Shown here: positions 15,371 through 43,306 of the stretch, piece by piece
Position numbering within the stretch: the stretch's first letter is position 1
How the letters are laid out: each line of letters begins with the position of its first letter
Origin: Opitutia bacterium
GTDB lineage: Bacteria; Verrucomicrobiota; Verrucomicrobiia; Opitutales; Opitutaceae
Length of the DNA: 64,000 nt
NCBI GenBank assembly: GCA_016217545.1
Contig: JACRHT010000011.1
Location: 124,001 to 188,000 of the forward strand
Direction: 5' to 3'
Made by a program: the position numbers and the translations under genes
Notes under the pieces: generated by a model
Told to the model about the DNA's origin: nothing
What the model saw: only the letters and a program-made list of their open reading frames with translations
Databases searched by the model: none

Positions 15371-15882
15371 ATGAGCCACTCGGGGGCTGGTAGATTGCGG
15401 TCGAGTTCGTGCTGGAACCACATCCAGTCCTCCTCGCCGCAACGGAAATGCGGCCAAGTTTCCTCCGCGCGCGACAGGCCAGCACGATAGGGATTCAGGT
15501 AGATGTAGAGAAGGATCAGCAACCGCTCGTCATCGGGCCGCAGACGTCGGTCGAAAAATCCTCGCTGCCACTCGCAACCTGCCGCGCGCAGCGCAGCCGT
15601 GGTTTCCGCTTTCAAGCGCTGCACGGCGCGGGCAAGCGGCAAGCGTTCACCGAGCCGAATCAACAGGTGAACATGATCGGGCATAACGGTCGAACAACGG
15701 ACGTGCCAAGTGCCGTCAGCGGACATCGCACCCAACTCGGCGGCCAGCGCAGCGGTCGGCGGCGGCGCGAGCAGGCCGGTGCGGTGCCCAGTCGTCGTGA
15801 GCGTCAGGAAATACTCGCTTCCAGCCTGACTTACGCGACCGCGACGCAAGGCCGCGTGCCCTTTGCGAGGATTGAAGGTCAT
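15367..15882 (-). CDS. REP-associated tyrosine transposase (RAYT), Y1/HUH family
   Basis: Predicted single-strand DNA endonuclease/transposase that recognises REP hairpins. The 171-residue protein has the HUH metal-binding motif in STVMPDHVHLLIRLGE (His70, His72), preceded by the typical SEYFLTLTTTGHRTGLL strand. The late helix, LLILLYIYLNPYRAGL, carries the candidate nucleophile Tyr (126 or 128) before the NPxRAGL signature of RAYTs. Nine REP units with a GTAG foot surround it, and its TAG stop codon lies inside one of them. No terminal repeats of its own are seen, as expected for domesticated RAYTs. Confidence 0.92.
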   Translation of the reverse strand: MTFNPRKGHAALRRGRVSQAGSEYFLTLTTTGHRTGLLAPPPTAALAAELGAMSADGTWHVRCSTVMPDHVHLLIRLGERLPLARAVQRLKAETTAALRAAGCEWQRGFFDRRLRPDDERLLILLYIYLNPYRAGLSRAEETWPHFRCGEEDWMWFQHELDRNLPAPEWLM

Positions 15883-35405: not shown

Positions 35406-35467
35406 AGTGATTTTGGGATTTCGGATCGCGGAACGCGGATGGCCGCCGCCCGAATTGCACTCGATCT

Positions 35468-35526
35468 GTAGGAGCCTGCTTGCAGGCGACCTGCCGCACT
35501 CGCATCGCCTGCAAGCAGGCTCCTAC
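35468..35526. repeat. Inverted pair of REP units (family A), far from the RAYT
   Basis: Units at 35468-35490 (+) and 35504-35526 (-) have the GTAG foot and the stem GCCTGC/GCAGGC with a TT loop, identical in design to the array around the RAYT 20 kb away. They lie between the convergent HIT and S9 peptidase genes. Short CGGAT/GGACTCCGAAGTCC-type repeats flank them within 35406-35599. Confidence 0.9.
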
Positions 35527-35599
35527 AAAAGGAAAGGCGCGCCTCCCGGCGCGCCTGACATCCGTCATCCGGACTCCGAAGTCCGGCGTCCGCATCAGC

Positions 35600-40611: not shown

Positions 40612-41760
40612 TCAACCATTCCGGCTTTCGAAAGTGCCGTCGGCACGTTTCACCACGAGCTTTTTCAACTCGAGCATCATCAGCGCCGCGGAGACGAGCG
40701 GTGCGGACAGTCCAGTCTGCGCCGTGAGCGCATCGATGCCGAGCAGCGCGCCGCCGCGGAAGCACTCGGCGATTTTGCGTTCGTCCTCGCTCAACGCCGC
40801 CGCGGTGAGCTGCTCGAGCACGCTGGGCTGATCGGGCGCAGCGGGAATCTTGCCCGGCGCGAAGCCCTGCAGGTAGTTCAACTCGCTGAGGAGGTCGTCG
40901 ACACTCGTGAGCAACGTCGCGCCGTCGCGGATCAGTTGATGGCAGCCGGCGCTGCTCGGCTGGTCGATGCGGCCGGGCACGGCGAACAACAGCCGGCCTT
41001 GCTCACCGGCGAAGCGCGCGGTGATCATCGCGCCACCATCGACATCGCTCTCCACCACGATCACCGCCTCGCTCATGCCGGCAACAATGCGATTGCGCAT
41101 GGCGAAGGACTGGCGATCGGCTTTGCGGCCGAACGGAAACTCCGAGAGCACCGCGCCGCTCTCGGCGATGCGTCGATACAGGTCGAGATTCTCCGAGGGA
41201 TAGATGATATCGATGCCGGTGCCGATCACGGCGGCGGTCTTGCCGCCCACGGACAGCGCGCCTTCGTGCGCGGCGGTGTCGATGCCGCGCGCGAGTCCGC
41301 TCGCGACGCAGAAGCCGAGCCGCGCGAGTTCGGCACCGAGTTTTTTCGCGGTGGCCTGGCCGTAGAGCGTCGTGCGCCGGCTGCCGACGATCGCGATGCA
41401 CGGCGCGTCGAACTCGTAGTCGCCCTTGCGATAGAGGCCGATGGGAGGATCGGTGATTTCCTTGAGGAGGCGCGGATAACCCGCATCGCGCGCGGTGATG
41501 AAGGTCGCGCCGGCCTGCGCGAGCCGTTCCTCCTCGCGTGCGAGATCGAAGTGCGCCGTCCAGCCCACGACCGCCGCGCTCGTCTCCGGGCCGACGCCGC
41601 GCACGCGTTCGAGGCTCCGGCGATCGGCGCGCAGGATCGCGACCGGGTCGCCGCCGAATTCGGCAAGCAGGCGATTGAGCGAGATGGGGCCGATGTTCGG
41701 CAGGTCGTTCAAAATCATGAACGCCTGTCGGGGCGTGAGGTCAGGGGCAGGTGTCGTCAT
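40612..41760 (-). CDS. dprA: DNA-processing protein DprA (Smf)
   Basis: Loads RecA on incoming single-stranded DNA during transformation. The 382-residue protein has an N-terminal helix-hairpin-helix-like region (LNDLPNIGPISLNRLLAEFG, LERVRGVGPETSAAVVG) and the Rossmann-like DprA core: AIVGSRRTTLYGQATAKKLGAELARLG, ASGLARGIDTAAHEGAL, GTGIDIIYPSENLDLY and FPFGRKADRQSFAMRNRIVAGMSEAVIVVE. A C-terminal winged-helix domain follows (IDALTAQTGLSAPLVSAALMMLELKKLV). The ATG at 41760 overlaps the end of nnr by 20 bases. No other competence gene is in the window. Confidence 0.95.
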   Translation of the reverse strand: MTTPAPDLTPRQAFMILNDLPNIGPISLNRLLAEFGGDPVAILRADRRSLERVRGVGPETSAAVVGWTAHFDLAREEERLAQAGATFITARDAGYPRLLKEITDPPIGLYRKGDYEFDAPCIAIVGSRRTTLYGQATAKKLGAELARLGFCVASGLARGIDTAAHEGALSVGGKTAAVIGTGIDIIYPSENLDLYRRIAESGAVLSEFPFGRKADRQSFAMRNRIVAGMSEAVIVVESDVDGGAMITARFAGEQGRLLFAVPGRIDQPSSAGCHQLIRDGATLLTSVDDLLSELNYLQGFAPGKIPAAPDQPSVLEQLTAAALSEDERKIAECFRGGALLGIDALTAQTGLSAPLVSAALMMLELKKLVVKRADGTFESRNG

Positions 41761-43306
41761 GGTCCGCGCAGTGGAGAGCTGGCTGGAGATAATCCAGCAG
41801 CTGCGTCGTCTGCACGGCCACCTGGCCCTTGTCGCGGGCGAGCAAATCCGCAGCGAGCCCATGCCACAGGACGCCTCGCGCGGCGGCGAGCAACAAATCG
41901 TCCGGCGCCTGCGCCATCAGCCCGCCGATGAGCCCCGCAAGGATATCGCCGCTGCCACCGCGCGCGAGCACCGGGCCGCCGAAAAAACTGAAATAGCTCA
42001 CGCCGCCCGCGACCACCCGAGTGGGCGAACCTTTCGCGACCAACACGGCGGCATTCGCCCAAGCGTCAGCGATGCGCGCCCACTCTCCCGCGTGCGGCGT
42101 GGCAACGAAACGCTTGCCGGGAGTCGATGCGATGATCTCCGGTCGGAGCGCGTCGGCATCGAGGAGTAGCGGAAGGGAATTTGCCGTATTACGGCAAATT
42201 GCCTCAGCAGCACGGAGAGTCTCGGGCGAGGCGCCGAGGCCCGGGCCGAGGACGAGCGCGGTGGCGCGGGCGGCTTTTTCGCAAATGAGATCGACGGCGT
42301 CGGCGGTGAGGCCGCCGTGGCTGCCTTCCGGACAACCGACCCACATGGCTTCGGGCAGCCTCGCAGCGTATTCAGGCACGAGCGGCACCGGCACGCAGGC
42401 GGTGAGCAAGCCGACGCCGCTGCGGAGCGCGGCCTGCACGGTCATCAACACCGCGCCGGGATAACTCAGCGAGCCGCCCACGACGAGCAGGTGGCCGTAA
42501 GTGCGTTTGTCGGAGTGCGCGGGGCGGAGGGCGGCGAGCGGGCGAAGGAGCGTGGGGAGCACGACGCAGGCTGTAGCCGGGGTCGGTGACCCCGGCCCGG
42601 GCTCACCGAGCCCGGCTACAGGTGCGGAGTGCGAAAAGAAACCCAAGTCGAGGTAACGCGCCCGCCCGACGAAGGCGGCGTTGGCCGGCGCGACGACGGG
42701 AGCTTTCACGATGCCGGTGCAGTAGGTGAAGTCGGCGCGGAAGACGGTGCCGCCGTTGACGTCCTCCCCCAGCCCGCTCGGTAAATCGACGGCGGCGCGC
42801 AGACGGATGCGCGGGTGCGTGTTCACCCAAGCAAGAAGCTCCGCCGTGGCGGCGTCCACTGGCGGGCGGAACTGGAAACCGAACACACCATCGAGACAGG
42901 CGTCGTAGGAAGAGAACTCACGCTTCACGGCGGCGGCATCGAGTTCGCGCGCGCGCGCGCCAGCGGTGGCGCGGAGCGTGTCGAGCGCGCGACGCGCGAG
43001 CGGACGCAGCGCCTCGACGCCGAACGCGAGCACGACGTCCGCGGTCGCGCCGGGGATGTCGGCGAGCAGCATCGCGGCGGCGAGCAAGGCGTCGCCGCCA
43101 TTGTGGCCCTTGCCGGCGAGAACAAGGAGGCGCACGCCGTTGCTGAGGCCGCCGATCTCGCGCGCGTCGTCGCGCAGGGCCGTCGCGATCGCGCGACCGG
43201 CGCGTTGCATGGCGTCCCACTCCGCGGCCTCGTCGCGCAGCAAGTCCGCCTCCCGTTTCCTCGCCTCGGCGCAGGACAGGATGGGGTGCGACTGGGCGGC
43301 CGTCAT
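41741..43306 (-). CDS. nnr: Bifunctional NAD(P)H-hydrate epimerase / ADP-dependent dehydratase carrying two in-frame palindromes
   Basis: Repairs damaged NADHX/NADPHX. The 521-residue protein joins an N-terminal YjeF_N epimerase (LAGKGHNGGDALLAA at about 63-77, DLPSGLGEDVNGG at about 174-186) to a C-terminal kinase-fold dehydratase (TYGHLLVVGGSLSYPGAV, LVLGPGLG, LLLDADALRP, ATPHAGEWARI, LARGGSGDILAGLIGGLMAQ with the catalytic Asp). Two dispersed palindromes are translated in frame: one encodes residues about 229-246, a Gly/Pro-rich linker between domains, and one encodes about 369-377 in the dehydratase. Both domains otherwise look intact. The ATG at 43306 is preferred over an upstream start. 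Confidence 0.93.
   Translation of the reverse strand: MTAAQSHPILSCAEARKREADLLRDEAAEWDAMQRAGRAIATALRDDAREIGGLSNGVRLLVLAGKGHNGGDALLAAAMLLADIPGATADVVLAFGVEALRPLARRALDTLRATAGARARELDAAAVKREFSSYDACLDGVFGFQFRPPVDAATAELLAWVNTHPRIRLRAAVDLPSGLGEDVNGGTVFRADFTYCTGIVKAPVVAPANAAFVGRARYLDLGFFSHSAPVAGLGEPGPGSPTPATACVVLPTLLRPLAALRPAHSDKRTYGHLLVVGGSLSYPGAVLMTVQAALRSGVGLLTACVPVPLVPEYAARLPEAMWVGCPEGSHGGLTADAVDLICEKAARATALVLGPGLGASPETLRAAEAICRNTANSLPLLLDADALRPEIIASTPGKRFVATPHAGEWARIADAWANAAVLVAKGSPTRVVAGGVSYFSFFGGPVLARGGSGDILAGLIGGLMAQAPDDLLLAAARGVLWHGLAADLLARDKGQVAVQTTQLLDYLQPALHCADHDDTCP
42178..42200. repeat. TAATA-centred palindrome inside the nnr coding sequence
   Basis: AATTTGCCGTA, a central T at 42189, then TACGGCAAATT: 11+1+11 and perfect. 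It is the same 23-bp core as the palindrome at 5285-5321, in opposite orientation. Read in the nnr frame it encodes AICRNTANS (about 369-377), just before the LLLDADAL strand. No stop codon results. Confidence 0.85.
42573..42619. repeat. Inverted pair of GTAG-footed palindromes (family B) inside nnr
   Basis: Two 23-base units, 42573-42595 (+) and 42597-42619 (-), one base apart, form an almost perfect 51-base inverted repeat at 42571-42621. Each is GTAG, an 8-bp stem and loop GGT. The stems are CCGGGGTC/GACCCCGG and CCGGGCTC/GAGCCCGG, again compensated. The 51 bases equal 17 codons, and the nnr frame crosses them without a stop. Confidence 0.88.

Follow-up and report, generated by a model that had tools for sequence, protein, structure and literature searches.

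The gene nnr lies on the minus strand of a 64,000-nt stretch of DNA from an Opitutia bacterium. This stretch (G000:C11:124001-188000) is called the window here, and the source genome, G000, amounts to 5.09 Mb in 17 contigs. The gene encodes a bifunctional NAD(P)H-hydrate epimerase / dehydratase and contains, in its reading frame, a 51-bp near-perfect palindrome built from two repetitive extragenic palindromic (REP) units. Pfam recognises the domains YjeF_N (1.3e-24) and Carb_kinase (5.3e-37) in Nnr, and the top named-record matches of the protein come from Candidatus Didemnitutus and Opitutus. The features of the locus, in window coordinates, are the following.

41741..43306, minus strand: nnr, bifunctional NAD(P)H-hydrate epimerase / dehydratase, 521 aa from the Met at 43306 (open frame, Pfam, homologous chain 2ax3).
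42571..42621, no strand: compact head-to-head GTAG-REP dimer, 51-bp near-perfect palindrome (sequence, fold, dispersed copies).
42572..42619, minus strand: 16 nnr codons supplied by the REP dimer, VAGLGEPGPGSPTPAT (frame translation, AlphaFold confidence).
42573..42595, plus strand: REP unit 1, GTAG CCGGGGTC GGT GACCCCGG (exact match to the unit pattern).
42596..42596, no strand: 1-bp spacer separating REP units 1 and 2.
42597..42619, minus strand: REP unit 2, GTAG CCGGGCTC GGT GAGCCCGG (exact match to the unit pattern).

Each 23-bp unit is composed of GTAG, an 8-bp stem, a 3-bp loop and a second 8-bp stem, and the two units are opposed. On the sense strand the dimer reads CTGTAG CCGGGCTC GGT GAGCCCGG G CCGGGGTC ACC GACCCCGG CTACAG. 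The stems are those proposed in an earlier note on this DNA, which had described two GTAG-footed units at 42571-42621. As single-stranded DNA, the 51 nt fold into one hairpin of -26.9 kcal/mol (shuffle mean -10.5, z -7.4, none of 200 shuffles as good). The nnr frame is free of stops through the dimer. P-VAGLGEPGPGSPTPAT-A corresponds to residues 229-246 of Nnr, counted from the Met at 43306, and lies between YjeF_N and Carb_kinase, where the note had placed an in-frame linker. An AlphaFold model of Nnr made with 31 sequences has a mean predicted local distance difference test score (pLDDT) of 90.2. Among segments of at least three residues, values below 50 are found only at 230-241 and in the last four residues (numbered along the 520-aa query, where the REP peptide spans 229-244). 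The segment is therefore predicted to be disordered.

The nnr palindrome belongs to a dispersed family. A blastn search with the palindrome region in its own genome gave 70 matches at E<=1e-3, corresponding to about 40 places; many of these matches are the two strands of one place, and 40 of the 83 first-look candidates were scored. A single-unit pattern allowing at most one mismatch matched 109 times in the genome, compared with 2 matches for a backward-pattern control. Copies elsewhere in the genome, which the earlier note had anticipated, are thus present and scattered. The first copy collection was seeded by an in-gene compact copy, a bias that the unit-pattern search was meant to correct. 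The dimer sets used below draw on that first collection and on the unit-pattern places listed; lone units are left out of the dimer counts. Within the genus, 8 of 13 genomes match the region, with 69 matches in G000 itself, 57 in G002, 4 each in G003, G005 and G009, and 1 each in G006, G007 and G012.

The own genome has 10 matches to Y1_Tnp. One of them lies in an open reading frame (ORF) of 153 aa, G000:C4:115659-116120, which matches the NCBIfam model REP_Tyr_transpos (NF047646) with 113.9 bits for a cut-off of 80 and is taken as a REP-associated tyrosine transposase (RAYT). Units of the nnr family are located on both sides of it (115555, 115592, 116122 and 116126). With its unpaired GTAG foot (stem 5-13 bp, loop 2-20), its dispersed head-to-head dimers and a RAYT flanked by the family, the repeat has the features of the GTAG REP superfamily. 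A separate Y1_Tnp match of the RAYT type (28.5 bits) is located inside the window, at 15574-15723 on the minus strand, in a 171-aa open frame.

In the own genome, the distance between the two units distinguishes dimers that lie in genes from dimers that do not. A spacer of at most 7 bp is found in 27 dimers, hereafter called compact (18 with 1 bp, 5 with 4, 2 with 2, one with 5 and one with 7). All 27 are in genes. Their 23 host genes, mostly housekeeping, are the following.

nnr, a carboxyltransferase, Lpd, the dihydrolipoamide acyltransferases E2a and E2b, an E1-E2 fusion (two dimers) and PurK.
NuoC (C-terminal tail), an ABC-F-like protein, an AcrB-family protein, NuoG, a CobW-family protein (two dimers), RecD2 (two dimers) and monomeric isocitrate dehydrogenase (IDH).
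SpoU methylase, a class I tRNA synthetase, a MurF-like ligase, NuoM and PurL (two dimers).
A sodium:solute symporter, an alpha-galacturonidase-like protein, HrpA and a UvrA-like protein.

Pfam supports the gene for 26 of these dimers. The galacturonidase-like ORF has no Pfam match and is supported by NCBIfam (999 bits, under the model cut-off of 1300) and by orthologues in G005 and G007. Scoring of the coding strand by codon usage was tried and rejected, with a coding median of 0.24 against 0.26 for the best wrong frame in this GC-rich genome. Because codon usage cannot separate the true frame from a shadow frame, Pfam, NCBIfam and orthologues were used instead. By the same tests, none of the 13 dimers with a spacer of 31-38 bp (hereafter spaced) is inside a gene. 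The ORFs over 12 of them have no Pfam family, save one ppnP-like frame. In that case (C12:779002) the dimer shares a stop-to-stop frame with the ppnP-like gene, and the REP is upstream of every possible start codon. The thirteenth (C2:311196) has no overlying ORF of 100 aa. Spacers of 13-20 bp are found both in genes (a rhomboid protein, 13 bp; an MFS protein, 17 bp; a second ABC-F, 19 bp) and outside them (one beside the RAYT, one at C3:231843). The split of 27/0 versus 0/13 gives a Fisher p of 8e-11, which is only a guide because the copies are partly non-independent. The earlier note had stated that REPs usually avoid coding DNA; the nnr dimer is no rare exception to this, as all 27 compact dimers found in the own genome are in genes. 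Single REP units were also observed in a DUF3516 helicase-like gene (L283, G000:C16:136650) and in an SMC-like gene (L284, C2:440014); these are possibly decayed dimers.

A division between genes and intergenic DNA was considered as a general rule beyond the nnr family, and is not shown for the other large REP family, TGTAGGAGCCTGCTTGCAGGCGA. Among the matches listed, 1 of its 15 own-genome places is in a Pfam-supported gene (GH115) and five further places are without Pfam family, the Pfam scan having covered six of the 15. A dimer of the TGTAGGAGCCTGCTTGCAGGCGA family is found in the window at 35467-35528, and the family is also found in the nnr linker of G002.

Every one of the 27 compact dimers uses the GTA of GTAG as a codon. 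A second frame runs into the TAG and is closed in each of them; the remaining one, which would encode much Cys and Arg, is free of stops in 12 dimers, and no dimer uses it. The resulting in-gene peptide is rich in Gly, Pro, Ala and Ser. Several copies of the spaced form are also stop-free in the frame of the compact dimers. In the two E2 proteins, the dimer is located between the lipoyl and E3-binding domains, in a segment known as a mobile Ala/Pro-rich linker. The peptide of the IDH dimer aligns with DESG in the 1itw chain, for a net gain of 14 residues, and the assignment of this place to a turn is by sequence only. Besides the dimer, the IDH gene carries a single REP unit (L136, G000:C16:134237-134259) in another stretch, where 1itw has 7 residues fewer.

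Comparison with relatives shows the nnr linker with and without palindromes. In the closest relative, G007, Nnr is 86% identical and has FFSTSSTDSPARVLLP in place of the own FFSHSAPVAGLGEPGPGSPTPATACVVLP; the linker has no palindrome and is 13 residues shorter. The gap of 17 residues predicted earlier for relatives is therefore in fact one of 13 residues, or 39 nt. The earlier note had named two outcomes as arguing against its proposal, a similar linker in relatives that lack the palindromic DNA and a lack of further copies of the palindrome; neither is the case. The nnr linker of G002 contains a different GTAG family with perfect 25-bp arms (106 matches in G002, 101 in G000). That of G009 contains a third family (69 matches) plus a GGTAGGGCGGGTTATCCC unit, for which a degenerate pattern matches 23 times, and that of G004 contains GGTAGGGCGAGTCGTCCC (9 matches to that pattern). 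By eye, the linkers of G006 and G003 look like a decayed pair. The G006 linker sequence matches mainly via one half, 28 times in G009 and 10 times in G003, and in G006 only at itself; none of the 10 matches in G003 is the G003 nnr linker. Units of the nnr family are not visible in the Nnr linkers of the other relatives compared, save that GVAGVSEPAKPAREPTTGAA in G005 may be a decayed example. The nnr linker is one of the sites at which relatives carry unrelated palindromes.

The comparison was extended to 28 sites, i.e. the 27 compact dimers and the second ABC-F, by searching the joined flanks in four relatives and aligning the stretches. G007 is without an nnr-family dimer at all 28. Some of these sites hold another repeat in a relative. 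By coordinates, a GGTAGGGCGAGT-type GTAG-footed repeat lies at the same site in the carboxyltransferase of G004 (C27:228973) and in the galacturonidase-like gene of G005 (C2:14749); RecD2 site 1 of G005 (VGRVVPDEP) is taken as GGTAGGGCGAGT-type from its peptide only. At permissive sites in G007, G005 and others, the peptides LKLQPSTST, NSQLS and ILNPKSEIQN resemble, by eye, translations of another, AT-richer dispersed repeat.

The location of compact dimers in genes recurs in G002, where 13 stretches out of 57 family matches were examined. All eight compact dimers are in genes. Five are in the same hosts as in G000 (E2b, Lpd, SpoU, NuoC and, decayed, E2a) and the others in a WD40 protein, glycine decarboxylase and an RNA methyltransferase. 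None of the five spaced dimers of G002 (27-32 bp) is in a gene, two being in ORFs without Pfam family and three under ORFs of at most 173 aa. In G005, both compact dimers examined are in genes (NuoG and NuoC). In G003, one compact dimer is in RecD2 and one just N-terminal of a SUI1 domain in a 216-aa frame.

We consider it likely that the nnr stretch is a compact GTAG REP dimer that was moved by a RAYT, inserted into the nnr linker and tolerated there. This agrees with the proposal of the earlier note that a mobile palindrome has become a protein linker. From the dispersal of the family, its association with the RAYT, and the presence or absence of the dimer at the same sites in relatives, we infer that it is mobile. 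The RAYT, a Y1/HUH tyrosine transposase, would move the dimer in trans, and dimers would land widely. In the simplest order of events, the nnr dimer would have entered the flexible segment between epimerase and dehydratase after the split from the nearest sampled relative. A dimer would survive in a gene only if the target is a loop or linker and if it is translated throughout in the neutral frame, in which a spacer of 1 or 4 bp would hold both arms. The nnr copy would have survived because its frame is stop-free, its spacer is 1 bp and its peptide, presumably nearly neutral, is accepted by a disordered linker. By passing this filter, no fewer than 29 further dimers of the family would have entered other G000 proteins, and about 30 copies appear to be translated as loops or linkers in everyday proteins.

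Several observations weigh against this explanation or against the spacer split on which it leans. The data are genome sequences only, with no transposition event, RNA or protein among them. The C4 RAYT shows F-F at what is presumably the position of the catalytic tyrosine, and its activity is therefore uncertain. Loss of the insert in G007 may account for the difference in nnr. The net gains relative to G007 (nnr 39 nt; PurK 39 nt, 13 residues; IDH 42 nt, 14 residues; SpoU 45 nt, 15 residues) do not form a clean footprint: they are smaller than the element, 49-51 bp, which means that target bases were lost or replaced. In G009, the compact dimer L189 has no overlying ORF of 90 aa and is a counterexample to the split; the same is true of a dimer with a 9-bp spacer in G006 (L190). 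Genes without Pfam family would escape detection around the spaced dimers, and the Pfam scan excluded three ORFs of 100-120 aa over such dimers (L153, L154 and L268). Finally, no compact copy was found between genes in the own genome, while random insertion should leave some there. Random insertion plus a frame filter is therefore insufficient. The split would be caused either by a separate gene-dwelling lineage, by faster loss of intergenic copies, or by trimming of spaced copies.

The first of these causes leads to a tentative proposal, which we hold possible and would not favour. Compact dimers would form a gene-dwelling lineage, defined by the 1- or 4-bp spacer, the stop-free frame and the benign Gly/Pro/Ala/Ser linker, that copies from gene to gene; their spaced sisters would be only intergenic, and the lineage would, with other palindrome families, repeatedly fill the same permissive loops. 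Trimming supposes instead that dimers with a 31-bp spacer insert anywhere and that selection collapses the in-gene ones to the compact form, whose shorter, neutral peptide would do less harm. It is suggested by the in-gene dimers with intermediate spacers, by spacer-4 forms that by eye retain bases like the ends of long spacers, and by the mean pairwise arm identity, 0.893 in genes versus 0.967 for spaced dimers, as expected if in-gene copies are older. Nevertheless, a spacer of exactly 1 bp in 18 of 27 dimers is hard to obtain by repeated independent deletions, and no spaced dimer was found in a gene as a starting point, though the frame is stop-free in several. Moreover, 8 of the 27 in-gene dimers have arms of the CCGGCCTC type, as against none of the 13 spaced ones (p 0.037), which resembles a separate lineage. 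On balance collapse in situ appears rather doubtful. We regard as unlikely that the hairpin is useful, i.e. kept for its DNA or RNA shape, for instance to slow ribosomes between domains or as a DNA site. In-gene stems are fully paired in 48 of 54 cases despite varied stem sequences (CCGGGGTC, CCGGGCTC, CCGGCCTC, CCGGTCTC), and the loops vary with changes of amino acids. In REPs at shared sites, third codon positions agree at 161 of 189 (85%, 11 pairs) versus 39-83% in the flanks of these pairs. However, the stems of spaced dimers are equally paired (22 of 26), their units being far more uniform, with the loop GCT in 24 of 26, and the unit search itself favours paired stems. A source population recognised by the transposase would also give paired stems and variable loops. 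The host genes are mutually unrelated, and G007 does without the element at every site. From the sequences, the pairing fits either a diverse transposase-selected source or hairpin selection, and the pattern of the dimers does not look like peptide conservation. A chance GC-rich palindrome in an Ala/Pro/Gly linker, of no mobile origin, is hardly credible. The GC content of the genome is high, and 83 nnr genes contain a further 61 inverted repeats, often weak, outside the linker, but the 109 unit matches against 2 for the control already refute this idea, as do the missing palindrome in G007 and the shuffles.

A last alternative concerns the copies that G000 has in common with a relative, at 9 of the 28 sites (E2b, Lpd, NuoC, SpoU, AcrB (decayed), NuoG, RecD2 site 2, the second ABC-F and E2a (decayed)). 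These may have spread by homologous recombination of REP-bearing gene segments and not by transposition in each species. In NuoG, SpoU, NuoC, E2b and Lpd, G002 or G005 has the dimer at the codon where G000 has it, and G007 has none, though at 23 of 28 sites the flanking DNA of G007 is nearer than that of G005 to G000. In NuoG, G000 and G005 share the REP followed by xRLGGL, G007 and G002 share the empty-site PSQQLTSL, and G004 is empty. Descent with loss in G007 does not explain this pattern; in nuoG, d(G000,G005) is 0.087, smaller than d(G000,G007), 0.097. The sharing in NuoG could come from recombination over short tracts or from more than one insertion at one codon. Whole-gene transfer between species was considered and rejected, as distances in the flanks generally show none. 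Beyond 24 nt of the REP the flanks show no wholesale transfer (for E2b, d(G000,G002) is 0.226 and d(G007,G002) 0.229), and recombined tracts would therefore need to be short. Recombination also leaves the nnr copy unexplained, nnr-family units not being seen in the other Nnr linkers compared. We see it as a possible route for the shared copies, with the balance against it.

Insertion of GTAG REPs into genes is already known in a related bacterium. Intragenic GTAG REPs have been described and are most numerous in Opitutus terrae (Di Nocera et al. 2013, PMC3733652), with UvrA and RNA helicases among the hosts, and the O. terrae GTAG-17 repeats form head-to-head dimers with 1-2 bp between partners. 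The same paper reports that most REPs are intergenic, proposes that flexible linkers or loops tolerate insertions, and describes two Xanthomonas recB genes with different REPs near the same site. The O. terrae repeats and the nnr dimer are alike in their GTAG foot, short stems, 1-2-bp head-to-head spacing and location inside ORFs, GTAG-17 being likened to the nnr family by description only. No gene-confined dimer type, spacer-based split or constant frame was seen in the main-text sections of PMC3733652 considered. Among the papers listed, judged by title and opening of the abstract and with few subscription papers, none deals with a gene-confined dimer type or with multi-family reuse of sites in the Opitutaceae group. 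Neither the division by spacer length nor the occupation of one site by several families across this group was found in print.

REPINs are inverted REP doublets that form hairpins and are linked to RAYTs; they were described as extragenic, with common spacings of 71 and 110 bp (Bertels & Rainey 2011, PMC3116915). The spaced dimers fit this picture. The compact ones also fold as one long hairpin and differ by their location in genes (27 of 27). The nnr dimer is filed here as a GTAG REP dimer, though it works like a REPIN. Rickettsia palindromic elements (RPEs) are found in frame in many unrelated genes, are about 150 bp long and form ten families (PMC10969869). The nnr family shares with them the in-frame position in unrelated genes (23 genes, one frame). 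It differs by its phylum, its GTAG foot, its flanked RAYT, where no RAYT link is stated for RPEs, and its 51 bp; the comparison is by size and not by sequence. The enterobacterial repeat units (RUs) are small mobile repeats with open frames in annotated genes (Delihas 2007, PMC2759123). At 103-168 bp, and resembling miniature inverted-repeat transposable elements, they are unlike the GTAG REPs of the nnr family.

One REP type almost exclusively in core genes of central metabolism, respiration, DNA repair and translation, with some of the same protein loops occupied by unrelated repeats in sister species, bears on several questions. The small palindromic repeats of bacteria owe their name to their avoidance of genes. 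The origin of linkers and loops, the tolerance of conserved enzymes to foreign peptides and the relation of gene-dwelling to intergenic forms can now be addressed by comparative genomics. If the tentative proposal of a gene-dwelling lineage is true, mobile palindromes would be a steady source of linkers in Opitutaceae. In-gene REP insertions can also mislead gene calling and alignment.

Palindromes were also surveyed in 83 nnr genes. Of 75 inverted repeats (arm >=10, loop <=30), 14 touch the linker, which makes up 6.6% of the bases (binomial p 3.6e-4). Three points weaken the idea that the linker is a uniquely hot site: the nnr genes share ancestry, a number of the repeats are weak (several of the 14, many of the other 61), and there is another such spot. 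About 590 nt downstream of the linker start, in the dehydratase part, three different long palindromes are carried by L039, L068 and L072. Short palindromes, mostly TTGTCACC...GGTGACAA, are found in the nnr linkers of L084, L085, L076 and L097. L084 and L085 have two each, with 29 and 17 pattern matches in their own genomes (perfect palindromes counted on both strands), and the exact pattern of the L076 palindrome has 0 matches in the L076 genome. The nnr gene of the window contains a second, perfect palindrome at 42178-42200, AATTTGCCGTATTACGGCAAATT, which is found at a similar place in the nnr of L010 and L026. In the L026 version both arms are changed and the pairing is kept.

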